Assembly (NCBI GenBank): GCA_024277815.1
Contig: JAJRUM010000058.1
Coordinates: 1-64,000, forward strand
Direction of reading: 5' to 3'
DNA: 64,000 bases
Origin: Gammaproteobacteria bacterium
GTDB lineage: Bacteria > Pseudomonadota > Gammaproteobacteria > Xanthomonadales > SZUA-36
The notes under the pieces were generated by a model that was not told the origin of the DNA, did not search any database, and saw only the letters and a list, made by a program, of their open reading frames with translations. The position numbers and the translations under genes were made by a program. This document shows, in pieces, positions 2,036 to 18,820 of the stretch (its first letter is position 1; the number at the start of each line of letters is the position of its first letter).

Positions 2036-4627
2036 ATGCAACAAGATATCTCCCGCCGCTGGATTGTCATGAAGTTCGGCGGCACCAGTGTCAGCAAGGC
2101 GGAGTTCTGGGAAACCATCGCCAGCCAGGCGCAACAGCGCAGCACCGATGGCTGGCACACGCTGATCGTGGTTTCTGCACTGAGCGGGGTGACAGATTTG
2201 TTGACCCGGCTGGCTAAAGGTTGCGGGAAGACCGAGCGCGAGGAAGTACTGAAAGATATTGAAGGCCGGCATGTCACCTTGTTTGCCAGCCTTGGTCTGC
2301 AGCCAGGAGACCGGTTCCTGAGTGCCTGGCAGCACTTGCTTGAACTGGCAGGGCAGCACTCTGCTGACCCGGATGCATCACAGCAGGCACGGATACTGGC
2401 CTGCGGCGAGCGGCTGTCGAGTGCACTGGGCCAGCAGGCTCTGCAGCACCGCGACATTGATACCCACCTGCATGACGCGACCGAACTACTGACGGCGGAT
2501 GGTGGTTATGATGATTCACCTCTGTCTGCAAGTTGTGGTGCCTGGTGTGAACCCCAATTGGAAGCAGCGCTGGCGGCTAAGGGAGCCGTACATATCACCC
2601 AGGGCTTCCTGGCCGCAGGCCCGCAAGGAGGGACCTGGTTGCTGGGCCGAGGCGGATCCGATACTTCAGCGGCCTGCCTGGCCTCTCGGCTGAGTGCGGA
2701 AAAGCTGGAGATCTGGACTGATGTACCCGGAATATTTACCGCCGATCCGAGGGTGGTACCGCACGCCTACCTGTTACAACGGCTCAGTTTCAGCGAAGCC
2801 CAGGAACTGGCCTCGATGGGGGCCAGAATCCTGCATCCGCCGAGTGTGCGTATCTGTAAACAGGCGGCAATCCCGTTGCAAATCAGGGATACCGGCCGGC
2901 CGGAAATCGTCGGCACTTATATCGAGCCACGTTCGGCCGCAACTGATGCGCAGGTCAAAGGCATCGTCAGCCGCCGCAAGATCACGCTGGTGATGATGGA
3001 CAACCCGTCGATGTGGCGGCAGGTCGGTTTCCTGGCCGAAGCTTTTGAGTTGTTCCGCAAGCACGGCCTTTCTATTGATCTGGTCTCCACATCAGAGTCC
3101 AGTGTTACCGTCAGTCTTGACCCGGCCCGGCCCGGGGTGGATAACGATGAGGTACTGGCTGCGCTGCTCAAAGACCTGTCAGTGCTGTGTGATGTACAGC
3201 TACGCACCAACTGCGTATCCATCAGCCTGGTGGGCAACGCCATTCGTACCATCCTGGGTCGCTTATCCGAGGCGCTGGATGTGTTCCAGGACCGTAAAGT
3301 ACACATGGTCACCCAGTCGGCCAACGACCTGAACCTGACGCTGGTGGTGGATGCAGAGCATGCGGATCGCCTGGTGCAAAAACTCCATGAACTGCTAATC
3401 TCCCCACAGGTCGGGCAGCGGCCTGAGTTTGGCGACAGCTGGATGGTGTTGACCGGCCCGGCCAGAAAACCCGCTGCAGACCCCTGGTGGCGCACTGAAG
3501 CCAGCCGCCTGGGGCAGTTGATGGGTAGCCGGCCGAGTGCTTTTGTTTATCACCTCGAGTCCATTCGTAACGCAGCGCAGGCGCTGCAATCAATGAATGC
3601 TGTCAGCCGCATCCTGTATGCGATGAAGGCCAATGATCACCCCTCGGTGCTGCGTACCCTGCATGCTGAAGGCACTGGCTTTGATTGCGTTTCGGTCGCC
3701 GAAATCCACCACCTGCGCAGTGTTATCCCGGCACTGGAGCCTGGAGAGATTCTGTTCACGCCCAATTTTGCGGGCCGGGATGAGTACCGCGAAGCGCTTG
3801 AGATGGGCGTACAGGTGACGATTGACAACATCCACCCGCTGCTTGAATGGACAGAATTGTTTGTCGGCCACGAGGTATTCCTGCGGGTCGACCTGGATGT
3901 CGGCCACGGCCACCACAAGAAGGTCATCACTTCCGGATCACACTCCAAGTTTGGTATTGCCATTGACCAGCTTGCTGAACTGCAGGCTGTTTTGGAAGCT
4001 AACAATATCCGTGTCACCGGCCTGCATGCGCATACCGGCAGTGGCGTCAACGATGCGACCGTGTGGGGCGAGCAGCTGCAGCGCATGTTCGAAGTGGCGC
4101 CGCTGTTTCCCAGTGTGCGGGTGCTCGACCTCGGTGGCGGCCTCGGCGTGCCCGACCGGATAGGGCAGCCAATGATGGACATACAGCGGGTAGACCAATT
4201 GCTGGGCGAGACCATTGCGTCATTCAGCAGCCAACAGCAGGTCGAGGTCTGGCTGGAGCCCGGCCGCTACCTGGTTGCTGCCGCCGGCGTGTTGCTGGCG
4301 CGTGTGACACAACTGAAATCCAAGGGCCAGTACCACTACCTGGGCCTGGAAGTTGGCATGAATACGCTGATCCGCCCAGCCCTGTATGGCGCCTACCATG
4401 AGATCGTCAACCTGTCGCGCCTCGACGAACCCGCCGTGCAAAGGGTCAACGTTGTCGGGCCCATCTGTGAATCCGGCGATATCCTGGGCGAGAGCCGCTT
4501 CCTGCCGAATAGTGAGGAAGGCGACATCATGCTGATCGCCAATGCCGGTGCCTATGGGCGTGTTATGTCGAGCCATTACAACCGCCGGGAACCGGCTGTG
4601 GAGTTGATATTTGAGGATGAGGTATGA
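2036..4627 (+). CDS. Bifunctional aspartate kinase / diaminopimelate decarboxylase (LysC-LysA fusion)
   Basis: This one 863-aa polypeptide carries the first and last enzymes of the lysine/DAP pathway. The N-terminal part (about 1-450) is aspartate kinase: it opens with the KFGGTSVS phosphate-binding motif and has GRGGSDTSA and DVPGIFTADPR, then two ACT-like regulatory repeats. The C-terminal part (about 490-863) is the PLP-dependent, alanine-racemase-fold decarboxylase: YAMKANDHP holds the PLP lysine, followed by HTGSGVND, the glycine loop DLGGGLGVP, EPGRYLVA and GPICESGDIL. ATG 2036 follows an AAGGA Shine-Dalgarno. Similar fusions are known in Xanthomonas/Xylella relatives. The fusion would let lysine feedback on the kinase act on the same polypeptide that makes lysine; that last point is inference. 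Confidence 0.94.
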   Translation: MQQDISRRWIVMKFGGTSVSKAEFWETIASQAQQRSTDGWHTLIVVSALSGVTDLLTRLAKGCGKTEREEVLKDIEGRHVTLFASLGLQPGDRFLSAWQHLLELAGQHSADPDASQQARILACGERLSSALGQQALQHRDIDTHLHDATELLTADGGYDDSPLSASCGAWCEPQLEAALAAKGAVHITQGFLAAGPQGGTWLLGRGGSDTSAACLASRLSAEKLEIWTDVPGIFTADPRVVPHAYLLQRLSFSEAQELASMGARILHPPSVRICKQAAIPLQIRDTGRPEIVGTYIEPRSAATDAQVKGIVSRRKITLVMMDNPSMWRQVGFLAEAFELFRKHGLSIDLVSTSESSVTVSLDPARPGVDNDEVLAALLKDLSVLCDVQLRTNCVSISLVGNAIRTILGRLSEALDVFQDRKVHMVTQSANDLNLTLVVDAEHADRLVQKLHELLISPQVGQRPEFGDSWMVLTGPARKPAADPWWRTEASRLGQLMGSRPSAFVYHLESIRNAAQALQSMNAVSRILYAMKANDHPSVLRTLHAEGTGFDCVSVAEIHHLRSVIPALEPGEILFTPNFAGRDEYREALEMGVQVTIDNIHPLLEWTELFVGHEVFLRVDLDVGHGHHKKVITSGSHSKFGIAIDQLAELQAVLEANNIRVTGLHAHTGSGVNDATVWGEQLQRMFEVAPLFPSVRVLDLGGGLGVPDRIGQPMMDIQRVDQLLGETIASFSSQQQVEVWLEPGRYLVAAAGVLLARVTQLKSKGQYHYLGLEVGMNTLIRPALYGAYHEIVNLSRLDEPAVQRVNVVGPICESGDILGESRFLPNSEEGDIMLIANAGAYGRVMSSHYNRREPAVELIFEDEV

Positions 4628-5502: not shown

Positions 5503-7389
5503 TTAACGTGCTCCTGCCGTTTGTGGCGTAAACCACACGGGTGAAGAATAGGCACGTTCCTGAATAGTCGCAACGGCCTCTGCCGGTATTTCTGTGCCAA
5601 ACTTGCGGGAGTCGTACAGTGTCCAGCGAGGGGTTGGGATTTCCAACACACGGACATAGTAGAAAGCACGTTGCGACGGGTTGAAATCCGGATCAATCCA
5701 GAAGGTCTGGAACTGGGGTGCACCGATTGAGTTTCTGTAGCTCGGTGTGCTGGTATCTACACTATTTCCGACTGGTGTTCTGCAGCGACCGTCATCACCA
5801 ATTTTGCGTCCATCGGAAACGGCGACGTCGTAAATTTTTTCCTGCGTGTTGCCATCAGAATCCAGCCAGCCCTTGATTACCTGTACGCGGTCGAGGTTTG
5901 CACCGTCTGGGTCGCGCAATGCCTGGATAAGGAATGTCGGGGCTGCGCCGTCATCGAGGTTCAGGTCACCACCCATGGGTACGCCATTCTGATAGCCATA
6001 CTTCGCCAGTCCAGGCCGGCTGAGGTCATCTGCACTAAAATGACCACCAGCAAACAGACGCAGGCGGATACGTGTTCCCGTGGTTGCGTAAACTTCCCTG
6101 CGAGCGAGCGCATCCCACAGGGCTTCACGTGTATTTTCCCTGGCCCAGACAGCTGCCAGACCAGAAGCACTGGTTTGCCAGGCCAGGTTCTTTACTTCTG
6201 GCGCCCCCATTCTGCCGGTGATAGCCAGTTGCATACGTTTAGTCCTGACTTTTGGTTCCAACAGGGATACTTTCCCAAAAAAATTATTTTCTGTTGTGGC
6301 TGCCAACGAGGTGTGGGAATCAGTCGAGCCAATCATGCCAAATTTGAAAGGGTTAACACCCAGTTTCTGTTCCCAGGCAAGCCCGCTCTTGAGCGCTTCA
6401 CGGGCATACTCACGCGGCAGCATATCGTTGGTCTTGGGCTGGGTGCCAAAGCTGCCTTTGTCCCAGGTCTCGAAATCTGCAAATTCGTCTGTAGGTGACA
6501 GCAGTGGGTGGGCTTCTCCATCCCCCTTTATCTGGGTTACCTCATACAGGGGTTCCCAACGTGCACGGGTCTCTGCATAGTGTCGGCTCAGTGGCTTGCT
6601 GGCCATGGTAACCGCATTAAACATCAGCCCATTGGAGAGGTTTCCATTGTGTGGGATGGCGAGTATCTGGCCACCGGTACGCCTCTCGTAGTCAGCCATC
6701 CAGGCCCACAGATCCTCCGGGTCTGAAGTGTCGTACAGGGTGATGGGCAGCTGTTGGTCAGCTCTTTGCTTGTCGTCACGAAAAATGACCACGCGATGCA
6801 GATTGTTGCCGTTTGGCATGGAGGTCCACTCAAACCCGATAAGGGCAGTGAATTGACCAGGGTCGTTAAATTGTTCAGCGATGGTAGTCTGTCGTTCCCA
6901 GAAGCTCTTGACCACATCCTGTAAATCAACCAGCGGGTCGCCTTTTTCCATCCGGGTTCTTGACCACAGTTCGTATGCTTCGGTGTTTTTGCCCGCTTTG
7001 ACCAGTTCAGAGAGTTGAGTGCCGATTTCGGTTTGTAGTAGCCGCACATTCGATTCTGCAATCATGGGCGCCAGCCCAAGGCTTTCTGCGTGATCGGCAA
7101 TGACCAGTAAATCCAGTGGTCGCTGCAGGCGGGCTTTAAGTCCTGTGCTCGAGGTTACTACTTCACCCTGCGCAAAGCGGTAGGCTTCCGCAGGGCCCAG
7201 TGTGTTGGCAATCATGCCGGCATCACTCGAGTAGGACGTGTGTAAGTGGGTGTCGCCGAAATAGACCTGGTTAGGGTAACTGTCTTCAACGTAGGGTGAG
7301 TAGTTCGAGATTTCGTCCGCCGAAGCATACTCCGCGACAAGGGTGAGCACACAGAGCGCAGTAGTGGTGAGTAGGTTTGATATATTCAT
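5503..7389 (-). CDS. Exported DUF3604-family protein, copy B
   Basis: Member of the DUF3604 family, whose conserved His/Asp motifs resemble PHP-type metal-dependent phosphoesterases; the substrate is not established. The ORF track starts at 7455, but that overlaps the upstream gene; ATG 7389 has an AAGGAA Shine-Dalgarno and begins a clean signal peptide (MNISNLLTTTALCVLTLVAE, likely cleaved after ASA). The mature protein (about 628 aa in all) shows the metal-type motifs FGDTHLHTSYSSD, LLVIADHAES, IPHNGNLSNG and GSTDSHTSLAA, and a conserved tail AYSSPVWFTP. It lies 25 bp downstream of a paralogue of the same size and probably shares its transcript. Export to the periplasm is inferred from the signal peptide. 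Confidence 0.85.
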   Translation of the reverse strand: MNISNLLTTTALCVLTLVAEYASADEISNYSPYVEDSYPNQVYFGDTHLHTSYSSDAGMIANTLGPAEAYRFAQGEVVTSSTGLKARLQRPLDLLVIADHAESLGLAPMIAESNVRLLQTEIGTQLSELVKAGKNTEAYELWSRTRMEKGDPLVDLQDVVKSFWERQTTIAEQFNDPGQFTALIGFEWTSMPNGNNLHRVVIFRDDKQRADQQLPITLYDTSDPEDLWAWMADYERRTGGQILAIPHNGNLSNGLMFNAVTMASKPLSRHYAETRARWEPLYEVTQIKGDGEAHPLLSPTDEFADFETWDKGSFGTQPKTNDMLPREYAREALKSGLAWEQKLGVNPFKFGMIGSTDSHTSLAATTENNFFGKVSLLEPKVRTKRMQLAITGRMGAPEVKNLAWQTSASGLAAVWARENTREALWDALARREVYATTGTRIRLRLFAGGHFSADDLSRPGLAKYGYQNGVPMGGDLNLDDGAAPTFLIQALRDPDGANLDRVQVIKGWLDSDGNTQEKIYDVAVSDGRKIGDDGRCRTPVGNSVDTSTPSYRNSIGAPQFQTFWIDPDFNPSQRAFYYVRVLEIPTPRWTLYDSRKFGTEIPAEAVATIQERAYSSPVWFTPQTAGAR

Positions 7390-7414
7390 GAGAGTTTCCT
7401 TCACATTTAAACCA

Positions 7415-9352
7415 CTATGGTGTGTACCAGATTGGTGATGTATAAGCTCTTTCAATGGTAACCATCGGAACCTCGGTTGACATCTTTATGTTAAAACGAA
7501 GTTGGTCATAGGCAGTCCAGCGTGGGGTGGGTATTTCAAGCACACGCAGGTAGTAAAAAGCAGCCTGGGCAGGATTAAACTCGGGGTCTCTCCATACGGT
7601 TGAAAGCTCGGGATCACCAATGGAATTGCGCCAACTGGCAGTTGCAACATCTACAGTATTGCCAACGCTTGGTAGCTTACCATCCGTACCGCGTTGCCGA
7701 TGGTCGGCATCGCCCCATACCACGTCAAAGACTTTCTCGTGAGTTTTGGCGTCTTCATCCAGCCAGCCTTTGACAACCTGGATACGATCCAGGTTTCCGC
7801 TTTCCGGGTCTTTCATAGCAGCCACCAGAAAGGTGGGAGACCGACCTTGTGGCCGTTCAGGTAATTCTCCTCCCATCGGAACCCCCCGTGAATAGCCGGC
7901 GTCAACCAGTTGGTGTGTCAGTGTGTCTTCTTCCGAAAAATCCCACCCACCAAAGAAACGAACACTAATACGGGCACCGGTGGTGCCATAGACCTCTTTG
8001 CGCTGCATCGCGTCCCATATGGCTTCGCGGGTGTTTTCAGTGGCCCAGACTGCGGCATAGCCACCTGACAGGTAATGCCAGCCAAAGTGCGTTGCATTAT
8101 TGTCACGCCTGGCGACGTGACTCCAGCGGTTTGGCGATGGTAACTCGCTGGCATGCTTGCCAAAATAGTTATTCTCTTCAACTGCGGCCAGCGCCGTGTG
8201 TGCATCTGTTGAGCCCAGCATACCGAACTTGAATGGGTTGGTGCCCAGTTTGTGTTCCAGCAACAAACCGTTCTTGAGTGCCTCACGAGCATACTCATAC
8301 TGAAACATATCCGGTGTTTTAAGTTCTTGTAGTGTCAGGTTACCCAGTTCCCAGCCTTCAATGCCATATCCGGCAAACTCATCATCCGGCGAAAGTTGGG
8401 GGTGCGATTCGCTGGCACCCTTTATCTGGGTGACTTCAATCAGGGGTTCCCAGCGGCTGCGTTGCTGCACGTAAGCGCTATCCAGTAAGCCGCCCTCAAA
8501 ATTGACCATCGCAAACATACGTCCATTGGACAAGTTACTGTTGTGTGGAATGGCCAGTACCTGACCACCTGTGTTCTTCTCATAGTTGGCAAGAAACTCC
8601 CAGAGCTTTTCCGGGTCTTCACTCAACCAGGCAGAGAAAGGCAGTATCTGATCAGTTTTTTTCTTACCGTCGCGAAATACCACAACCCTATGCAAGTTGT
8701 TACCACCGGGAACAGAGGTCCACTCGTACCCAATCAGTGCAGTAAATTGTCCGGGCGTGTTAAACCGGTCGGCCAGTTCCGTATAGTTATTCCAGACACT
8801 TCGCATTAACGGTATGGCAGTTTCCGGATCGGTGATCAGTGTCGGCATGGTGCCTGAAGTGTGTGCCTTTATAAGCTCGCTGGCAGCGCGGGCTGCAGCT
8901 TCGCCACCCTCATTCATCATTTCATGCCAACGTTTTATGGTCGGATCGGTCAGCAGATTTGAGTTACCGGCGTAGATTTCAGCACCAATCCCCAGGCCAA
9001 CGGCGTGATCTGCAATCACCAGGAAGTCCAGCGGCTGCGACAGTTTCGCTGTCTTGCCTGCCAGGTACTCAACTTCTTCACCTTTTGCAAACCGGTATGC
9101 TGCTTCGGGACCGAGACGGGTACCATAGGCAAATGCATCACCGGAGTTTGAGGTGTGCAGGTGGGTGTCGCCCCAGAAAACACGAGTGGGGTAATTCCGG
9201 CCAGCATAGGGCGAATAAGCTACTTGCCCTTGTTGGTTATCGTTTTGGCCTGTGTGGGTGCCTTCTTCACAATTTCCGGAGACCAGGAAACAGGTACCGA
9301 GCAGGACGATGACAGGCCTGCTTATATATTTGGTGATACGGTGATTTCTCAT
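7415..9352 (-). CDS. Exported DUF3604-family protein, copy A
   Basis: This 645-aa paralogue of the next gene is first in a two-gene minus-strand operon. It has a hydrophobic N-terminal export signal (VIVLLGTCFLV). A cysteine follows at about residue 28, but the preceding SGN does not make a good lipobox, so an ordinary signal peptide is likelier. The same motifs recur: WGDTHLHTSNSGD, FLVIADHAVG, IPHNSNLSNG, GSTDAHTALAA and the tail AYTSPIWYTP. The two copies are clearly diverged, so the duplication is not recent. It diverges from the acyl-CoA ligase-phaC-phaZ operon across a 134-bp gap that holds a TGTC-N8-GACA dyad. Confidence 0.85.
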   Translation of the reverse strand: MRNHRITKYISRPVIVLLGTCFLVSGNCEEGTHTGQNDNQQGQVAYSPYAGRNYPTRVFWGDTHLHTSNSGDAFAYGTRLGPEAAYRFAKGEEVEYLAGKTAKLSQPLDFLVIADHAVGLGIGAEIYAGNSNLLTDPTIKRWHEMMNEGGEAAARAASELIKAHTSGTMPTLITDPETAIPLMRSVWNNYTELADRFNTPGQFTALIGYEWTSVPGGNNLHRVVVFRDGKKKTDQILPFSAWLSEDPEKLWEFLANYEKNTGGQVLAIPHNSNLSNGRMFAMVNFEGGLLDSAYVQQRSRWEPLIEVTQIKGASESHPQLSPDDEFAGYGIEGWELGNLTLQELKTPDMFQYEYAREALKNGLLLEHKLGTNPFKFGMLGSTDAHTALAAVEENNYFGKHASELPSPNRWSHVARRDNNATHFGWHYLSGGYAAVWATENTREAIWDAMQRKEVYGTTGARISVRFFGGWDFSEEDTLTHQLVDAGYSRGVPMGGELPERPQGRSPTFLVAAMKDPESGNLDRIQVVKGWLDEDAKTHEKVFDVVWGDADHRQRGTDGKLPSVGNTVDVATASWRNSIGDPELSTVWRDPEFNPAQAAFYYLRVLEIPTPRWTAYDQLRFNIKMSTEVPMVTIERAYTSPIWYTP

Positions 9353-9408
9353 TTAAAGCTCAGGTCGATAATACATAACTCAGAATACTATTACAGGCTG
9401 TTGAGACC

Positions 9409-9424
9409 TGTCACCTTCAGGACA
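9409..9424. promoter_or_regulatory. Candidate operator site A, TGTC-N8-GACA
   Basis: TGTCACCTTCAGGACA lies in the divergent gap between the DUF3604 operon and the acyl-CoA ligase operon, 63 bp before the ligase ATG. It has the same TGTC-N8-GACA form as 14442-14457 and 16703-16718. Crp-family sites have this 5-6-5 dyad layout, and a Crp/Fnr gene is encoded 4 kb away. Confidence 0.5.
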
Positions 9425-9486
9425 AATACACATATATTCTGTTGGTAAACTTGTGGATATCGTGGATATTCAGGGATTATCAGAAA

Positions 9487-11064
9487 ATGAACCAGACCCC
9501 CGCTTTGGATGAACTGCCTTTCCTTGATGGGTTAAAGAAACAGTTTAGCAGCGTGGCAGAAATGATTGTGACACGTGCACATGAACTTCCGAACCGATGT
9601 TGTGTGGCTTTTTATGACCGCCAGATTACCTATGCTGAAATGAATGCCAACGCCAACCGGGTGGCCCACTATCTTTTGCACAAGGGTATCAAGAAAGGTG
9701 ATGTGATATCACTGATGATTCTGAATTCTCCTGAAGTCTACGATTGCATGTTCGGTATCCAGAAAATTGGTGCGGTGGCTGGTTTGATCAATTTTTCCCT
9801 GAAGGGCCCTGAAATTGCTTTTTTGCTGGATGACTCACAGCCTGAAATCGTCTTTGTCAGCAGCGAGTTCATGGTTGATTTTTCCACTGGTGTCGAATTG
9901 GCAACGCATAAGCCACTGGTTGTTGAGGTACAGACAAATTCTGATTCCCCGGCAGGTATAACCGCGACGACGCTTGCAGAGATTCTCGCGGCTTATCCTG
10001 CGGATGAAGCCCTGATTCCCCAACAGGCCGACGACCCTTTCCTGCTACTGTACTCGTCAGGGACAACGGGGCGTCCCAAGGGTATCCTCCTTGCAAATAA
10101 GGGACAGCTTTCTGTGTGTCGTGACATGACACGCTCGGGACTCATCGAGGGTGGTGATGTCATGCTGATTCTGTTACCAATGTTCCATGTCAATCCAATT
10201 TGTGTGTGGACACTTCCGTTGATATTTGCAGGGCAGACGCTTTGTATCCGTACCGCGTTTTCTCCCGCTGATATCTGGCCGGCAATTCTCGAAAACCAGG
10301 TGACCATCCTGATGGGTGTTCCTGCCATGTACAACTATGTTTATTACTCCACTGATACATCAGGTATGGACATGTCATCATTGAAACTGAAATGGGCATT
10401 CTGTGGTGCGGCGCCCTTATCGGTAGAACTGATCAGGGGTTTCAAGGAAAAATTTAATGTCAGTATTGTTGAGGGTTACGGTCTGAGCGAATGCACCGGT
10501 GTCAGTTCCGTGAATCCCCCACTTGGAGAATGTAGAATCGGGTCCATAGGTCAGCCACTTTCAGAGCAGGAGATCGAGATTCTGGATGACGCTGCAAACC
10601 AGCTTCAGGCCGGAGAACATGGGGAAATTTGCGTGCGAGGCGATGCTACGATGCTGGCCTACCTAAACCAGCCGACGGCAACCGCGGATGCTTTTCAGGG
10701 CGGATGGCTGCGAACCGGGGACGTAGGATTCAAGGATGATGATGGCTATATTTATATCGTCGGCCGAAAAAAAGAGATGATTAATCGTGGTGGTGAGAAC
10801 ATTTACCCGCGGGAGATCGAGTCAGTGCTGGAGGCCCATCCTGAAATTTCGGCTGTTGCGGTAATCGGAACCCCGGATGAAGCTCTGGGTGAGAGGGTGA
10901 AAGCTGTGATCGAAACCACCCAAGCCGGAGTCTTGTCTGCAGCAGATATCAAGACATTCCTTGAGGACAAACTGGCCAGGTATAAAATTCCTGATAAGAT
11001 AGAATTTATGGACCGGATCCCCAGAAACCAAACGGGGAAAACTCTTAAAACAGAATTGAGTTAG
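9487..11064 (+). CDS. Acyl-CoA synthetase (class I adenylate-forming, AMP-dependent ligase)
   Basis: Activates a carboxylic acid to its CoA thioester through an acyl-AMP. All core motifs are present in order: LLYSSGTTGRPKGI (P-loop), YGLSECTG, GWLRTGDVGFKDDDGYIYIV with GRKKEMINRGGENIYP (hinge and gate), and the C-terminal catalytic lysine in PRNQTGKTLK. The ORF track starts at TTG 9442; ATG 9487 (MNQTPALDELPFLDG) fits the family better and gives 525 aa. The subfamily looks like crotonobetaine/medium-chain acyl-CoA ligases, but the substrate cannot be read from sequence. It stands 25 bp before phaC, so a role in feeding acyl-CoA to the PHA synthase is a reasonable inference. Confidence 0.9.
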   Translation: MNQTPALDELPFLDGLKKQFSSVAEMIVTRAHELPNRCCVAFYDRQITYAEMNANANRVAHYLLHKGIKKGDVISLMILNSPEVYDCMFGIQKIGAVAGLINFSLKGPEIAFLLDDSQPEIVFVSSEFMVDFSTGVELATHKPLVVEVQTNSDSPAGITATTLAEILAAYPADEALIPQQADDPFLLLYSSGTTGRPKGILLANKGQLSVCRDMTRSGLIEGGDVMLILLPMFHVNPICVWTLPLIFAGQTLCIRTAFSPADIWPAILENQVTILMGVPAMYNYVYYSTDTSGMDMSSLKLKWAFCGAAPLSVELIRGFKEKFNVSIVEGYGLSECTGVSSVNPPLGECRIGSIGQPLSEQEIEILDDAANQLQAGEHGEICVRGDATMLAYLNQPTATADAFQGGWLRTGDVGFKDDDGYIYIVGRKKEMINRGGENIYPREIESVLEAHPEISAVAVIGTPDEALGERVKAVIETTQAGVLSAADIKTFLEDKLARYKIPDKIEFMDRIPRNQTGKTLKTELS

Positions 11065-11089
11065 AGGGCGTTGATCGATTGGGCAAAGC

Positions 11090-12769
11090 ATGAACAACAA
11101 AACCAATGAAATTGGCCAGCAGGCCGCACAAAGCACCACGGTGTTCAATCCGATCGTGGGCGCTCAGTTCTCCGAGTTGCTGCACTCTGCTGCCTATGTG
11201 GCTGGCCAGGCTGTGCGTCACCCCCGTATTCTGGGCAGTCACTTACGGAGCTTTCTCAACGAGGCCGCTGGCATCATTCGGGGTAACTCTGAGCTGGTTC
11301 CGGATAGGGGGGATCGGCGGTTTGTCGATGCAGCCTGGTCCCAGAACCCTTTGTACCGGCGCTCACTTCAATTTTGGTTGGCTGCCAAAGCCGGTATCAC
11401 TGAATGTCTCGATGATATCGAGATGGATAAAACAGCGCGTGCACGCGCCTTGCTATTGAGTGACATCGTGCTTGATAGTCTTGCGCCAACTAACACCCTG
11501 ATAGGTAACCCTGCAGCTTTGAAACAAATGTTCGATACGGGTGGCCTGTCCCTGCTTCAGGGTGCCAGAAATGCTTACGAAGACTTTATTTCAGGTAATT
11601 GGTTACCCGCGCAGGTCGACAGCCGAAACTTCGAAGTAGGTAACAACCTGGCCAGCACCGAGGGTGCCGTGGTTTTTCGAAACGACATGCTGGAGGTTAT
11701 CCAGTATGCCCCGCTGTCGAAACAAGTGCATGAAATACCATTGCTGATTATCCCACCGCAGATCAACAAGAACTATGTCCTGGATCTAACCCCGGATAAG
11801 AGCCTGGTTCGTTACTTGCTCAAACAGGGCTTCAGGGTGTTTTGTATCAGCTGGTTCAATCCCGGTCCTGCGCAGGAGCATTGGGGCTTGGATGACTACG
11901 TCAACGCAGTGATTGGAGCCAGTGACGTTGTCATGACGATTACCCGCCAAAAGAAACTGAATGTAATGGGTGCATGCTCCGGCGGTATCACGCTTTCAAC
12001 CACCCTGAGTCACCTGGCAGTTTTGGGAGATAATCGCATTAATAGCTGTACGTTGCTGGTGTGTGTGCTTGACCCACGCCCGGAAGATACTGAGGTCGGT
12101 GCGCTGGTGACTGATACTTCAATTGAATTCGCCAGATCCAGATCGGCCAAAAAAGGTATTCTTTCAGGTAAAGACCTGTCGACGACGTTTGCCTGGATGC
12201 GTCCCAATGACCTGATCTGGAATTACTTTGTCAACAACTACCTGATGGGAAACAATCCGCCCGCTTTTGACATATTGCATTGGAATAACGATGTAACCAA
12301 TCTGCCTGCAAACTTACACTCTGATTTTCTCGATTTCTTCAAGAATTCACCATTCGCGCACGCGGGCGAATATAGTTTTATGGGCAAATCGCTGGATCTT
12401 TCCCGGGTAAAACAAGATATTTTTATGGTCGCAGGACTCACTGACCACATCACGCCGTGGAAGGCTTGCTATCGCTCCATTGACATGTTCGGTGGGGATG
12501 TGACCTTTACACTTTCCAACAGTGGTCATATCCAGGCATTGATCAACCCACCGGGAAATCCCAGGTCTCGCTATATGTCCTGTAATGTCCGTACGCGCAG
12601 TGCTGAGGAATGGCTGGAGAATGCTGAACAGTACCAGGGAACGTGGTGGGAAATGTGGTCTGGATGGCTCACTGAAAGGTCTGGTCTGCCGCGCGGCGCG
12701 CCCAGAAAACTGGGCAATGCCAAGTATCCGGTGCTGGATAAAGCCCCCGGACTCTATGTTTTCGGTTGA
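11090..12769 (+). CDS. phaC: Class II (medium-chain-length) polyhydroxyalkanoate synthase PhaC
   Basis: Polymerises (R)-3-hydroxyacyl-CoA into PHA at the granule surface. At 559 aa it has the length of Pseudomonas PhaC1/PhaC2, and long stretches match that class (SQNPLYRR, EGAVVFRNDMLE, PPQINKNYVLDL, FAWMRPNDLIWNY). The catalytic triad is at the same numbers as I recall for P. aeruginosa PhaC1: Cys296 in GACSGG, Asp452 in GLTDHITPW, His480 in SNSGHIQ. The Shine-Dalgarno is weak, so coupling to the ligase is likely. Unlike Pseudomonas, there is a single synthase here, and no phaD, phaF or phaI is nearby. Confidence 0.95.
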   Translation: MNNKTNEIGQQAAQSTTVFNPIVGAQFSELLHSAAYVAGQAVRHPRILGSHLRSFLNEAAGIIRGNSELVPDRGDRRFVDAAWSQNPLYRRSLQFWLAAKAGITECLDDIEMDKTARARALLLSDIVLDSLAPTNTLIGNPAALKQMFDTGGLSLLQGARNAYEDFISGNWLPAQVDSRNFEVGNNLASTEGAVVFRNDMLEVIQYAPLSKQVHEIPLLIIPPQINKNYVLDLTPDKSLVRYLLKQGFRVFCISWFNPGPAQEHWGLDDYVNAVIGASDVVMTITRQKKLNVMGACSGGITLSTTLSHLAVLGDNRINSCTLLVCVLDPRPEDTEVGALVTDTSIEFARSRSAKKGILSGKDLSTTFAWMRPNDLIWNYFVNNYLMGNNPPAFDILHWNNDVTNLPANLHSDFLDFFKNSPFAHAGEYSFMGKSLDLSRVKQDIFMVAGLTDHITPWKACYRSIDMFGGDVTFTLSNSGHIQALINPPGNPRSRYMSCNVRTRSAEEWLENAEQYQGTWWEMWSGWLTERSGLPRGAPRKLGNAKYPVLDKAPGLYVFG

Positions 12770-12788
12770 TTGATCTTGAAGGAACACC

Positions 12789-13640
12789 GTGGACCACTAC
12801 ACACCTGAAATATGTAACATCAAGATAGGTAGGCAGGAATTTCGCACTGCCCGTTGGGCTGGTGATTCCAGAGTTCGGCCGTTGCTGTTCTTCAATGGTA
12901 TAGGGGCCAATCTGGAACTGGTTCAGCCGTTGGCACGACGCTTGAACCGCAGTCGGGACTTGATCACCTTTGAGCCACCGGGAATAGGCGGTTCACCCGA
13001 TGCAACCTTTCCATACCGGATTTGGTCATTGGCAAAGTCAGCGTCGCGTATTCTTGACGCGATGGGCTACACCACGGTCGATGTCTATGGTGTTTCCTGG
13101 GGTGGGGGCCTGGCCCAGCAGTTTGCTTTTCAATATGCCAACCGGGTCAGATGCCTGGTGCTGGCGGCAACTTCTCCCGGTGTCATAATGGTTCCGGGCC
13201 ATATCTCTGCTCTCAGTAAAATGGTGCACCCGGCACGCTACACTGACTCTCAATACATGCAAAGAAATTTCAAAGCACTGTACGGCGGGATATCTGAGGA
13301 TGTCCTGCTCAAGCACACCAACCGTATCCAGCCACCGACCAGGAAAGGCTACCTTTATCAGTTGTTGGCAATGGTGGGTTGGTCGAGCCTGCCTTTTCTC
13401 CCATTCCTGTCACAACCAACGCTGATACTGGCCGGTGACCGGGACAAGATAGTACCACTGGCCAACGCTCAGATTCTAAAAACGCTGATCCGCAATTCCA
13501 GGTTGCAGGTCATCAAAGGTGCAGGGCATCTGTTTTTCGTTTCCAGGGCGGATGAGAAGGTCCCGATGATCAGAAACTTTCTGCGTCAGCACAAGGAGAG
13601 AAGACATCAGGCACAAGACACGCTGGTTGCTGAGGCCTGA
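12789..13640 (+). CDS. phaZ: Intracellular medium-chain PHA depolymerase PhaZ
   Basis: Alpha/beta hydrolase that releases 3-hydroxyalkanoic acids from stored PHA. The 283-aa protein resembles Pseudomonas PhaZ closely (LLFFNGIGANLELVQPL, GVSWGGGLAQQFA, VLAATSPGVIMVPG). The nucleophile is Ser103 in GVSWGG, with Asp217 or Asp219 near LAGDRDK and His247 in GAGHLFF completing the triad. The start is GTG 12789, preceded by GAAGGA. It is 19 bp after phaC in the same operon. It ends one base before the convergent Crp/Fnr gene, leaving no room for a terminator outside the genes. Confidence 0.92.
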   Translation: MDHYTPEICNIKIGRQEFRTARWAGDSRVRPLLFFNGIGANLELVQPLARRLNRSRDLITFEPPGIGGSPDATFPYRIWSLAKSASRILDAMGYTTVDVYGVSWGGGLAQQFAFQYANRVRCLVLAATSPGVIMVPGHISALSKMVHPARYTDSQYMQRNFKALYGGISEDVLLKHTNRIQPPTRKGYLYQLLAMVGWSSLPFLPFLSQPTLILAGDRDKIVPLANAQILKTLIRNSRLQVIKGAGHLFFVSRADEKVPMIRNFLRQHKERRHQAQDTLVAEA

Positions 13641-13641
13641 G

Positions 13642-14352
13642 TTAAAGACCTGTTTTTCGGCGCTCACCACGCAGTGCGCCGGGGTTTAAAATTCTGATTT
13701 TTCGAAACCCAACCTCAACCAGGCCTTCAGACTCCAGGTTCTTCAACAAGGCATTAACAGTTTGTCGTGAACAACCGATCATTGAGGCGATATCCGCCTG
13801 CGACAGAGCCAATTCTACGGCCTCTCCTGCAAACCCCTCCGAATGAACCATATCGGAAATATCTGCCAGTCGAATCCGCAGGAAATCCCCTGGTGGCAGA
13901 GTGTTGCCCTGACCCAAAAGTCTGTACAGAATGGCGTGGCGGGTGAGTAAAAGTTTTACAAACTCCCTATAATAGTGTGGTTCGATATCAATAATTTGTC
14001 CAAATTTGGAAGTAGGCAAGAACAGGGTTCTAACGCTTGTACGCGCAGTTGCCGTAATAATTGCATACTCTTTGTTTAACAGGCCGGACTCTCCGAACCA
14101 GAAACCCGGTCCGCCCAAGTGAAAGAAGAACTCACCTGAATCAGTGGCTTGTCGGGTAATTGCCACTTGGCCTTCCAGCACCGCAAACATACCGGCAGGG
14201 TGTGTTTCTTCGGTAATCAGGACCTGGTTCTCTTTCGCCGACCTGAGTATGGAGTTGTCCAGCAACAGTGCTTGCAATTTAGCCGGAAGGCCACCAAACC
14301 AGTTGCCTTTCTTAAGCAGGCTGAGAGAAGCTTGTCGATACGCTGCACGCAT
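13642..14352 (-). CDS. Crp/Fnr-family transcriptional regulator
   Basis: The 236-aa protein has an N-terminal cyclic-nucleotide-binding-type beta barrel (about residues 20-140), a long dimer helix and a C-terminal winged helix with LSQADIASMIGCSRQTVNALL. There is no N-terminal cysteine cluster, so it is not an oxygen-sensing Fnr. The recognition helix reads SRQTVNALL where Crp has SRETVGRIL, which implies a site different from TGTGA. It diverges from the PQQ alcohol dehydrogenase and converges on phaZ, so it is the obvious candidate regulator of this island. Its effector is unknown. Confidence 0.88.
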   Translation of the reverse strand: MRAAYRQASLSLLKKGNWFGGLPAKLQALLLDNSILRSAKENQVLITEETHPAGMFAVLEGQVAITRQATDSGEFFFHLGGPGFWFGESGLLNKEYAIITATARTSVRTLFLPTSKFGQIIDIEPHYYREFVKLLLTRHAILYRLLGQGNTLPPGDFLRIRLADISDMVHSEGFAGEAVELALSQADIASMIGCSRQTVNALLKNLESEGLVEVGFRKIRILNPGALRGERRKTGL

Positions 14353-14441
14353 AAAACTTTTAGATAACTCCGTTTCCCGTGTTTAAACAGACGTGAATTA
14401 TTCAAGTTACCCCTGAATATTACTCGATTTGAAACAGGTGT

Positions 14442-14457
14442 TGTCGCATTATTGACA
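14442..14457. promoter_or_regulatory. Candidate operator site B, TGTC-N8-GACA
   Basis: TGTCGCATTATTGACA lies between the Crp/Fnr gene and the PQQ alcohol dehydrogenase and overlaps the TTGACA -35 element of the latter, a position suited to repression or to autoregulation of the divergent regulator gene. It is one of three such dyads in the island. Confidence 0.5.
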
Positions 14458-14481
14458 GAACAATGCTTCAAGATCTTTAAT
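14452..14481 (+). promoter_or_regulatory. Putative sigma-70 promoter of the PQQ alcohol dehydrogenase
   Basis: TTGACA (14452-14457) and TTTAAT (14476-14481) are separated by 18 bp and stand about 45 bp before the start codon. The -35 is consensus and the -10 has one mismatch. The left hexamer is inside operator candidate B. Confidence 0.55.
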
Positions 14482-14524
14482 GATATAAGTAAATCTGCTA
14501 CTTATTTGGTGAGGAGCCTCCTGG

Positions 14525-16687
14525 ATGAACCCGAAAAGCAAGCGCGTAGACCGGCTGTTATTCAGCATTTTTTCGGCAAGCCTTTTATTGCTTGTCGCCT
14601 GTGACGAGCAAGCTGAACTGTCAGTTACTTCAACCACCCAGGCTAAAACAACGGCAGCGGTGGATGCTGCGCGCATTGTGGATGCCAACAACGAGCCAGG
14701 TAACTGGCTGGCACACGGCCGCACCTATGATGAACAACGCTTCAGTCCGCTGGCTGATATCAATGACAACAATATTGAACGCCTCGGGTTAAGCTGGTTT
14801 TATGATTTCCCGACCAACCGGGGAATGGAGGCCACGCCTCTGGCTATTGATGGAGTGTTGTACGTCAGTGGTTCATGGAGCATGGTTTATGCCTTCGATG
14901 CGGTCAGCGGCGAGTTACTTTGGCAATACAACCCTGAAGTTACCAAGGCGAAGGCACTGCATGCCTGCTGTGATGTCGTGAACCGGGGCGTGGCTGCATG
15001 GGATGGCAAAATATATGTGGGTACCATTGATGGTCGGCTGATCGCGCTTGATGCCGCAGACGGCCATGTCATCTGGGATGTGCAAACCACGCCGGAAGAT
15101 GCGGCCTATACGATCACAGGTGCGCCCCGGGTTGTCAAAGGTAACGTCATCATCGGGAACGGTGGTGCCGAATTTGATGTTCGTGGGTTTGTCTCCGCCT
15201 ATGATGCCCAGACCGGTGCACTGAACTGGCGTTTTTATACGGTTCCGGGAGACCCTTCAAAACCTTTTGAAAACCCGATTCTGGAAAAAGCGGCAGAAAC
15301 CTGGAGCGGTGAGTGGTGGAAAATGGGTGGTGGTGGCACGGTATGGGATTCAATGGCCTATGATCCCGAACTTGACTTGCTCTACATCGGCGTTGGCAAT
15401 GGTGCCCCCTGGGACCGTTCAATCCGCAGCCCGGAAGGTGGAGACAACCTGTTTCTTTCATCGATTGTTGCATTGCGACCGGACACCGGTGAATACGTCT
15501 GGCACTACCAGACTACCCCGGGTGACAGTTGGGACTATACCGCCACGCAACATATGATCCTGGCTGATCTTCAGGTTGGCGGCACAACCCGCAAAGTGAT
15601 CATGCAGGCACCCAAAAATGGTTTCTTTTACGTACTCAACCGTGAAAACGGCGAGTTCTATTCGGCAGAAAAGTACACTTTGGTGACCTGGGCCAGCCAT
15701 GTTGATCAGGAGACGGGCCGGCCGGTTGAAGCAGCAGGTGTGCGCTACGATGCCGGCGTGCCTGCAGTAAATTTCCCCGGCTCACAAGGTGGTCACAACT
15801 GGCACCCGATGAGCTACAGTCCGAATACCGGTTTGGTATATATTCCTGCCCAGCAAAACCTTGGCGTCTATGCGCATGATGACGGCTTTAGCTATGAAAA
15901 AGGTTTCTACAACACCGGACTGGACTGGACCAAGGCTACATTGCCTGATGATCCTGAACAGCGCGCGGGGGTTATAGGCCAGTTCACCGGCTTTATCACC
16001 GCCTGGGATCCCATTGCACAGAAGGAGGTGTGGCGCGTGCCGCACAGCAACCTCTGGAATGGCGGTATTCTTTCCACTGCCGGTAACCTGGTGTTTCAAG
16101 GCAATGCGGATGGCCAGTTTGCCGCCTATAAGGCGGATAATGGCGATCTTCTATGGAACTTTGAAGCACAGACCGGGATTGTGGCCGCACCCATCAGTTA
16201 TCGCGTTGGAGGCAAGCAGTATGTGGCTGTTGTCGCAGGATGGGGTGGCTCCTTAATTACCTTTGGTGAAATCGCCAACAGGTCCAAAGGCAGCGTAAAT
16301 CGCAGCCGCATGCTGGTATTTGAGCTCGATGCCAATGGCAAGTTGCCGGACCCCGTGCCATTCGACCGTGGCACACCAGAGCCACCTGCAATTACTGCCA
16401 GTGCAGAAACTATCCAGCAAGGTGATGACCTCTATCACTCCCGCTGTTTTGCTTGCCATGGCGAAGGTGCAATTTCAGCCGTCAGTTATATTGCTGACCT
16501 GCGCTACATGTCGGCGAATACACATAAGAATTTCAAGGCTATCGTGCTGGGCGGCCTATACCAGGATCGTGGCATGCCCTCTATGGCGAGTCACATCAGT
16601 GATGCGGAGGTTGATTTGATTCATACGTATTTAACCAGCATGGCCCACCGGGTTCTGGAGGAGACGAACGCTGCGCCTGACCAATGA
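14525..16687 (+). CDS. Lipoprotein quinohaemoprotein (PQQ- and haem c-dependent) alcohol dehydrogenase
   Basis: Periplasmic oxidation of alcohols with PQQ, passing electrons to a fused cytochrome c. The 720-aa protein starts at ATG 14525 with a lipobox LLLVAC (Cys about residue 26), so it should be anchored to a membrane. The eight-bladed propeller carries the vicinal disulfide HACCDVV typical of PQQ alcohol dehydrogenases, WDYTATQ, and tryptophan-docking repeats such as SPNTGLVYIPAQ. The C-terminal domain (about 625-720) has the haem motif CFACHGEG and a probable axial methionine in RGMPSM. Combined quinohaemoproteins of this type are usually soluble, so the lipid anchor is unusual. It has its own promoter and diverges from the Crp/Fnr gene. 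Confidence 0.92.
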   Translation: MNPKSKRVDRLLFSIFSASLLLLVACDEQAELSVTSTTQAKTTAAVDAARIVDANNEPGNWLAHGRTYDEQRFSPLADINDNNIERLGLSWFYDFPTNRGMEATPLAIDGVLYVSGSWSMVYAFDAVSGELLWQYNPEVTKAKALHACCDVVNRGVAAWDGKIYVGTIDGRLIALDAADGHVIWDVQTTPEDAAYTITGAPRVVKGNVIIGNGGAEFDVRGFVSAYDAQTGALNWRFYTVPGDPSKPFENPILEKAAETWSGEWWKMGGGGTVWDSMAYDPELDLLYIGVGNGAPWDRSIRSPEGGDNLFLSSIVALRPDTGEYVWHYQTTPGDSWDYTATQHMILADLQVGGTTRKVIMQAPKNGFFYVLNRENGEFYSAEKYTLVTWASHVDQETGRPVEAAGVRYDAGVPAVNFPGSQGGHNWHPMSYSPNTGLVYIPAQQNLGVYAHDDGFSYEKGFYNTGLDWTKATLPDDPEQRAGVIGQFTGFITAWDPIAQKEVWRVPHSNLWNGGILSTAGNLVFQGNADGQFAAYKADNGDLLWNFEAQTGIVAAPISYRVGGKQYVAVVAGWGGSLITFGEIANRSKGSVNRSRMLVFELDANGKLPDPVPFDRGTPEPPAITASAETIQQGDDLYHSRCFACHGEGAISAVSYIADLRYMSANTHKNFKAIVLGGLYQDRGMPSMASHISDAEVDLIHTYLTSMAHRVLEETNAAPDQ

Positions 16688-16702
16688 AGCGCTTGATACA
16701 AA

Positions 16703-16718
16703 TGTCGTTTTCACGACA
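16703..16718. promoter_or_regulatory. Candidate operator site C, perfect dyad TGTCGT-N4-ACGACA
   Basis: TGTCGTTTTCACGACA is a perfect 6-4-6 palindrome that fits the TGTC-N8-GACA pattern of sites A and B. It lies 16 bp after the alcohol dehydrogenase stop and before an AAGGA plus ATG (16733) that opens a 27-codon reading frame. That ATG may be the old start region of the broken GMC oxidase gene. Confidence 0.5.
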
Positions 16719-16791: not shown

Positions 16792-17685
16792 GTGGGATGT
16801 ACGGTGCCATTGTTAATGCGAATGCGTGATCGATATAAAACCCTGCCACATATTTCTTTATGGTTGGGACAGCAGGTTCGTACTAATTCTGAGACCTTGA
16901 CTACGGCTAACGATACGCAACACTCAGTACATGATGGTGTAACCATTAGCTCAATGATATCTGTCGATGATGACACCACGATGGAAATTAACCGCTTTAG
17001 AAAAGGCTCTGATGGTACTTGGGTATTACTGCCTTATGTACCCATGGTTTCCGGTGAAGGGTTTATGCGTTTTATCAAGTTCCTTGGAAATACGCTGATC
17101 CATCCAGTAAAGACATTCAAAGTTCTGCGTGCCAAAGGCAAAGCCGAAAGGTCAATTCTGTTTCTGGTGATGCAAAAGTCGGAAGCTTTTATTCATTTGG
17201 AGTGGCGTAGAAAATGGTACCGCTTATTCAGAAAAGATATTTCGGCAGTACAAAATGAAGGCGATACACCTCTCAAGGTAGTTTTTCCTAAAGCTGAAGA
17301 GGCGACCAGGCGTTACGCAGAGATTTTGGGGGGTGAACCAGGTTCAGCACTACCTGAAATCATATTGGGAGCACCTTTTACGGCCCACATCATGAGTGGT
17401 GTTGCTATTGGCAAAGACAGTAGCAGCGGTGTGGTTGATGAATCAGGGGCGGTATTCGGGTATCAGAATTTACGCGTGCTTGATGGCTCTATTGTGCCAG
17501 GAAACCTGGGCGTAAACCCGTCATTGACGATAACGGCATTATCTGAATTTGCCATGAGCCGAGTGCCGGTTTTTAATCAGGAACGTGCCAGTAGTATTAA
17601 GCCAGTTCTATTTTCCAAACCATTAGACGGGCAAGTCTCTGCACTGACAGGAATGGGCGATTTAATGAAAGTTATCAATAGGTAA
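16792..17685 (+). pseudogene. GMC oxidoreductase (cholesterol-oxidase-like), C-terminal remnant
   Basis: Flavoenzymes of this family oxidise alcohols such as sterols. Only about 297 codons remain, starting at a GTG directly after the in-frame stops TGATAA. They contain the family's C-terminal signature (VLDGSIVPGNLGVNPSLTITALSEF), the substrate-domain HIMSGVAIG stretch and VRTNSE. The N-terminal FAD-binding Rossmann motif, about half of a normal protein of roughly 550 aa, is absent upstream. Only a short unrelated reading frame from ATG 16733 fills the gap to the alcohol dehydrogenase. I read this as a 5'-deleted gene; translation of the remnant cannot be excluded. Confidence 0.75.
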
Positions 17686-17890: not shown

Positions 17891-18820
17891 ATGAATCTGG
17901 ACACCGATTTCGAGTTCCAAACCGTCCAATTGGCCCCTGATTATGAAGGGCCGGTCACCAGTACGCTGATTTCATCAAAATTCAACTGTGGCAACAGGCC
18001 AGCTGTCCTCTATCTGCACGGTTACATCGATTACTTTTTCCACCCCCATGTCTGCGTGGAATTTATCAACAGGGGAATCGATTTCTATGCGCTTGACCTG
18101 CGCAAATATGGCCGCTCACTGATGCAACACCAACACCCGAACTACTGCCGGGATATGCAGGAGTACTTCGAAGAGGTTACGATCGCCATCCAGCAGATTA
18201 GGGCGACCGGTGAAGCACCGATTTACCTGTTGGGCCACTCTACGGGCGGGTTGCTGGCAAGTTATTACATGAATGATGGTCAGGAGAAGTCCAGTATAGA
18301 TCGGTTGATACTGAATTCACCATTTCTAAAATTCAATAAACCGGCGCTGGAAATTGCAGCGATGCTGGTTGCTGCGAGGGTTGTTTCAGCATTTATGCCC
18401 TTCGCGAAAGTCGAAGGCGCTCTGTCGCCGGCTTATGCGCAAAGCGTGCATAAAAACTATTTCGGTGAGTGGGATTTCAATCTGGCGTGGAAGCCAATAG
18501 AAGGCTTTCCAACCTATTTCAAATGGATTCTCGCCATAGCGAACGCACAGAAAAGGCTGCTCAGCCCGAATATCCAGGTGCCCATCCTGACGATGCACTC
18601 ATCACGTTCTTTAAAACTCACCGAATTCTCTGAAGACGCCATGTCGGCAGATATCGTCCTGAACGTGGAAGATATCAAACGTATCGGTGCCCAACTGGGC
18701 CGGCAGGTAACCTTACTGGAAATCGAGAACGCACAGCACGATATATTTCTTTCGCCCAGGCAGGTGAGGGGTGCAGCATTCAAACAAATGTTTGCCTGGC
18801 TGGGGGTGGCTGAACCATGA
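17891..18820 (+). CDS. Alpha/beta hydrolase (serine aminopeptidase S33 / monoacylglycerol-lipase type)
   Basis: A 309-aa cytosolic hydrolase with the oxyanion motif YLHGYIDYFF, the nucleophile elbow LLGHSTGG (Ser117) and a C-terminal histidine in ENAQHDIFLS. The layout is that of lysophospholipase/monoacylglycerol-lipase-like enzymes; the substrate is unknown. ATG 17891 has GGAG about 10 bp upstream. The stop overlaps the next start (ATGA), so the two genes are translationally coupled. It lies just past the right edge of the accessory island and probably belongs to the core chromosome. Confidence 0.82.
   Translation: MNLDTDFEFQTVQLAPDYEGPVTSTLISSKFNCGNRPAVLYLHGYIDYFFHPHVCVEFINRGIDFYALDLRKYGRSLMQHQHPNYCRDMQEYFEEVTIAIQQIRATGEAPIYLLGHSTGGLLASYYMNDGQEKSSIDRLILNSPFLKFNKPALEIAAMLVAARVVSAFMPFAKVEGALSPAYAQSVHKNYFGEWDFNLAWKPIEGFPTYFKWILAIANAQKRLLSPNIQVPILTMHSSRSLKLTEFSEDAMSADIVLNVEDIKRIGAQLGRQVTLLEIENAQHDIFLSPRQVRGAAFKQMFAWLGVAEP

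Follow-up and report, generated by a model that had tools for sequence, protein, structure and literature searches.

Probable operators of a CooA-like reader beside PQQ and PHA genes

The TGTC-N8-GACA dyads in a 64-kb stretch of DNA (the window) are probably operators of the neighbouring Crp/Fnr-family protein, P0001, which would act on them as a class II activator. Judging from sequence, the most likely reader is a Crp-fold activator with CooA-like DNA recognition that lacks both the haem ligands of CooA and the arginine and serine with which Crp binds cAMP. The original prediction had placed three such dyads at 9409, 14442 and 16703 and proposed that they form a regulon of the local Crp/Fnr protein. 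These coordinates are right, the three are the sole exact copies in the window, and all are intergenic (Table 1). The regulon proposal is supported, for what we regard as putative operators, by comparative evidence: sites recur in the island of an ortholog, and the recognition helix matches that of CooA. To the earlier reading we add the CooA precedent and the class II spacing.

Table 1. Sites, candidate promoter elements and genes of the window
Feature	Position	Strand	Context
Two DUF3604 genes	5503..9352	-	proposed site A targets
Candidate -10 TATTCT	9382..9387	-	21 nt past site A, DUF3604 side; inferred promoter
Site A TGTCACCTTCAGGACA	9409..9424	.	between divergent DUF3604 pair and ligase-phaC-phaZ operon
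Candidate -10 TAAACT, extended (TGG before it)	9446..9451	+	21 nt past site A, ligase side; inferred promoter
Acyl-CoA ligase, class II-like phaC, phaZ-like depolymerase	9488..13640	+	proposed site A targets
Crp/Fnr-family regulator P0001, recognition helix SRQTVNALL	13642..14352	-	proposed reader of the sites
Candidate -10 TAATAT	14417..14422	-	19 nt past site B, crp side; G005 has TAAAAT in the same place
Site B TGTCGCATTATTGACA	14442..14457	.	between crp and PQQ dehydrogenase; conserved in G005 and G026
TTGACA (-35-like)	14452..14457	+	downstream half of site B; TTTAAT (14476-14481) 18 nt further
PQQ-dependent alcohol dehydrogenase with cytochrome c domain	14525..16687	+	proposed site B target
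Site C TGTCGTTTTCACGACA	16703..16718	.	between PQQ dehydrogenase and truncated GMC oxidoreductase ORF
GMC (cholesterol-oxidase-like) ORF without N-terminal half	16792..17685	+	downstream of site C

Intergenic dyads are concentrated in one island

Dinucleotide shuffling of the window gives a mean of 0.90 dyads, and three were reached in 4 of 100 shuffles. A whole-genome count, which the original prediction had suggested as a check, found 23 copies (2.98 Mb, 77 contigs), fewer than the 54 of a reversed control pattern. The surroundings of every copy were fetched: 17 lie inside long ORFs and six outside, and half of these six are the island's sites A, B and C. These counts come from pattern searches and fetched stretches, with ORF status assigned by a longest-ORF heuristic rather than a gene caller. 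Finding three within 7.3 kb has a p of about 0.03 among 23 random points and of about 0.0004 when the same cluster is judged among six intergenic points. Because the pattern had been seen before these statistics were computed, the window's own p values are optimistic; the test in a second genome, G026, is free of this bias.

Chance is a very improbable source of the cluster. Such a dyad is expected about once per 65-130 kb, three in the window are only mildly unusual by the shuffles and the genome-wide p, and site C may well be a chance copy. However, independent recurrence beside the ortholog, a three-genome footprint and the spacing to candidate -10 hexamers all argue against it.

One intergenic dyad, G000:C25:55628, is conserved in G005 (a genome of the same genus). 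It was left out of the regulon because it coincides in part with another, longer palindrome that precedes a putative small RNA. A 1.1-kb gap between ilvE and an NYN-domain gene is itself conserved (L148:5064-6219, about 55.1-56.2 kb of G000:C25; L139 in G005:C43) and, by its sequence, seems to hold two tandem small transcripts with terminators. Each putative transcript is preceded by a palindrome like ACTGACAA-N3-TTGTCAGT, and neither has an Rfam or tRNA match. The dyads at L039 and L042 lie directly 3' of hairpin sequences that follow sucD-like and threonine-synthase-like genes.

The motif recurs beside an ortholog and is conserved at the PQQ promoter

We searched 151 relatives, 399 genomes of the order, 369 of the class, a GTDB contig scan and plasmids, and found a single full-length near relative of P0001 (G026:C25:15509-16207, 56% identical). 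G026 holds 15 dyads in 2.9 Mb; two of them, both intergenic, are on the 20.5-kb contig of the ortholog (p about 0.005). The dyad at 3729 separates a divergent aldehyde dehydrogenase from a PQQ dehydrogenase 73% identical to that of the window, and the dyad at 18539 precedes a sulfatase. At 15443, the near-copy TGTCAGGTAATTTACA stands before a DUF3604 gene whose product is 74% identical to the window's second DUF3604 protein. Genes for PQQ dehydrogenase and DUF3604 thus carry the motif beside the regulator in both genomes, and the comparison of orthologous islands proposed with the original prediction bears it out, with the same sites before overlapping target genes. Elsewhere, no exact site was seen at 18 other PQQ-dehydrogenase loci (47-68% identity), and one of 30 DUF3604 loci (L100) has one.

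In G005, TGTCGCAGTATTGACA lies between the PQQ dehydrogenase (82% identical) and a divergently oriented aldehyde dehydrogenase. When this intergenic region is aligned across the window, G005 and G026, 13 of 16 site columns are invariant, compared with 27 of 135 elsewhere (p 2e-6) and 12 of 43 among the nearest columns (p 3e-4). No close relative of P0001 was found in the G005 assembly (230 contigs, 94% complete). Either the regulator gene falls in an assembly gap or another protein uses the site there, and this conserved site with no detectable regulator is the strongest evidence against the operator model. It favours the idea that the dyads are true operators of a regulator encoded elsewhere, with the crp gene a bystander. 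We consider this improbable, since, among the annotated proteins of the G000 and G026 islands, no transcription factor other than Crp occurs in both, and since the geometry, the helix and the predicted -41.5 spacing are all of the Crp type. The weak points of the proposed regulon are site C, which faces only a gene remnant, and the G005 PQQ site, which is without a detectable ortholog.

The divergent arrangement of PQQ and aldehyde dehydrogenases is common to L112 (G005:C61) and L059 (G026:C25), and a TPP-dependent enzyme adjoins or is near the pair in both genomes. In the window, crp occupies the position that aldehyde dehydrogenase holds in G005 and G026.

More distant relatives of P0001 comprise a Myxococcota protein and a copy in G011; all others are about 32% identical or less. 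The Myxococcota protein (L023:8952-9692) is 39% identical and has a similar helix, SRQTLNELL; its 9.9-kb contig has no TGT-N10-ACA site. In G011 (L034:9130-10119 of G011:C30), an in-frame fusion joins TPR repeats to a cNMP domain that shares 60% identity with the one in P0001. The C-terminal tail of P0001 is also kept there and the helix-turn-helix (P0001 residues 140-215) is missing. The copy may be decayed or repurposed, or the assembly may be at fault.

Candidate promoters lie at the class II distance

We looked for a -10 hexamer at offsets 12 to 31 past the 16-bp dyad in nine pairs of site and gene, five of them from the window and four from G026. TAxxxT occurs exactly 21 nt past the dyad in five of the nine, and at every other offset at most once. 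The five hexamers are TAAACT (ligase) and TATTCT (DUF3604) in the window, and TACAAT (PQQ), TATACT (aldehyde dehydrogenase) and TATATT (sulfatase) in G026. Five at any one offset arose in a fraction of 0.0003 of 20,000 shuffle sets (about six), and TAxxxT stands at 21 nt in 0 of 66 flanks of other genomic dyads. A -10 hexamer at -12 to -7, 21 nt past the site, would place the site centre at -41.5, which is the class II position of Crp (PMC7192510). This centring is predicted from the -10 spacing in five of nine pairs.

At both site A and the G026 dyad at 3729, a -10 hexamer lies at 21 nt on each side of one palindrome; at site A, a single palindrome could serve both divergent operons. For the ligase, ATG 9488 is the probable start, since an ORF that began at TTG 9442 would take in the promoter predicted for site A.

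Site B has no TAxxxT at 21 nt. It does overlap a -35 hexamer, as had been claimed, and because it covers the TTGACA of a near-consensus promoter (TTGACA-18-TTTAAT, 14452-14481), P0001 could bind the sites and mainly repress. We judge this unlikely, though a little less so than control by a regulator encoded elsewhere. The -10 hexamers at 21 nt in the PQQ, aldehyde dehydrogenase and sulfatase promoters of G026 and on both sides of site A are too far away for the site's TTGACA to serve as their -35, but at a distance that suits class II activation. We also considered, and set aside, autoregulation through site B: the crp-side -10 is at 19 nt, and crp of G026 has no site at its own promoter. This -10 is shared with the aldehyde dehydrogenase promoter of G005 and may thus be inherited from it.

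Site C has no convincing -10 or other promoter-like sequence behind it. The GMC ORF downstream matches only profile positions 278-533 of 535, has in-frame stops upstream and is a gene remnant. Site C may be a leftover or a chance copy.

P0001 appears CooA-like at the DNA and lacks the haem ligands of CooA

P0001 belongs to the Crp/Fnr superfamily by both of its domains, with an N-terminal cNMP-type beta-roll (PF00027) and a C-terminal Crp-type winged helix (PF13545), each above cut-off. Among known folds, its predicted model (pLDDT 78) resembles those of Clr, GlxR and mycobacterial Crp (E 1e-13 to 1e-14, probability 1.00); the TM-scores stay near 0.5, as the domains are arranged differently.

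Crp reads the G of TGT through Arg180, and the fourth G:C pair through Glu181 and Arg185 (PMC11253593). The corresponding residues of P0001 are Arg, Gln and Ala, and the G026 ortholog has the helix SRQTVNAIL. The original prediction had pointed to a helix that differs from Crp; its substitutions agree with those of CooA, a reader of TGTC. The recognition helix of Rhodospirillum rubrum CooA is SRQTTSTAL (checked against PDB 1ft9). Like it, the P0001 helix begins R-Q-T, and neither protein has an arginine at the R185 position. The CooA operator, TGTC(A/G)N6(C/T)GACA (PMC5371261; compare TGTCGGCNNGCCGACA, PMC545781), has the same half-sites and spacing as the sites here. Its consensus is fully matched by sites B and C and by both exact G026 sites, and site A departs from it at position 12 alone (G instead of C/T).

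The resemblance to CooA does not extend to the rest of the protein or to its neighbourhood. P0001 is 23% identical to CooA, and no cysteine or histidine aligns with the haem ligands Cys75 and His77 in either P0001 or its G026 ortholog. The neighbours of P0001 encode PQQ dehydrogenase, DUF3604 proteins, ligase, PhaC and PhaZ, not the CO dehydrogenase and hydrogenase of CO oxidation. Other residues also replace Arg82 and Ser83 of the phosphate-binding cassette, with which Crp binds cAMP, in a part of the alignment that is gapped. With the haem ligands missing and Arg82/Ser83 replaced, P0001 appears CooA-like at the DNA, yet we do not file it as a CooA; its residues also make a classical cAMP sensor unlikely. 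The N-terminal Fe-S cysteines of Fnr and its E..SR helix are absent as well, and the single cysteine of P0001 is in the helix-turn-helix. The genome's only other clear Crp/Fnr protein is Fnr-like, with N-terminal cysteines and the helix ETISRVL. Fnr recognizes the half-site TTGAT, and TGTC is not expected for an Fnr-like protein.

With Escherichia coli Crp (TGTGA-N6-TCACA), P0001 shares the fold, the dyad geometry, the R180 equivalent and, by prediction, the class II position; it differs in that the fourth base of the sites is C rather than G, and in the substitutions at the helix and at Arg82/Ser83 described above. Sinorhizobium meliloti Clr (core GTNNCNNNNGNNAC), the top fold match, is likewise related to Crp; its half-site is altered too, and the geometry is similar. 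However, the Clr core requires C at the sixth and G at the eleventh base of the 16-base dyad, a feature absent from the sites here, and Clr is activated by cAMP/cGMP. CprK, a chlorophenol-responsive Crp/Fnr protein, is also among the fold matches and illustrates how an activator with the Crp fold can sense an organic substrate; its operator differs from the sites here.

A model for regulation and its implications

We propose that a P0001 dimer reads TGTC(R) N6 (Y)GACA. Its conserved arginine, equivalent to R180 of Crp, would contact the G of TGT, and, as in CooA, glutamine for E181 together with alanine for R185 would make the fourth base C instead of G. From its position at about -41.5, P0001 could then recruit RNA polymerase as a class II activator. 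The signal for the protein may be an organic ligand from the pathway and not cAMP, CO or oxygen. Given that the targets include a ligase, PHA synthase, depolymerase and alcohol and aldehyde dehydrogenases, our guess is an organic acid, aldehyde or CoA ester.

A Crp-type switch beside its palindromes is an already known type of gene control, and the system described here is a fresh example. It would add a second example, one without haem, of the rule that glutamine in place of Glu181, without Arg185, turns the Crp half-site TGTG into TGTC. For DUF3604, on which the literature searched has one passing mention, it offers a candidate local regulon tied to PQQ-dependent alcohol oxidation and PHA storage. 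More tentatively, and with somewhat less than even confidence, we suggest that a new Crp/Fnr branch, with an R-Q-T-x-N helix and neither cAMP motif nor haem ligands, has adopted CooA-type operators. Such a regulator would sense an intermediate of alcohol or acid catabolism. It would then co-activate DUF3604 enzymes and PHA storage along with PQQ oxidation in the periplasm, and one palindrome at -41.5 would drive both sides of a divergent promoter.
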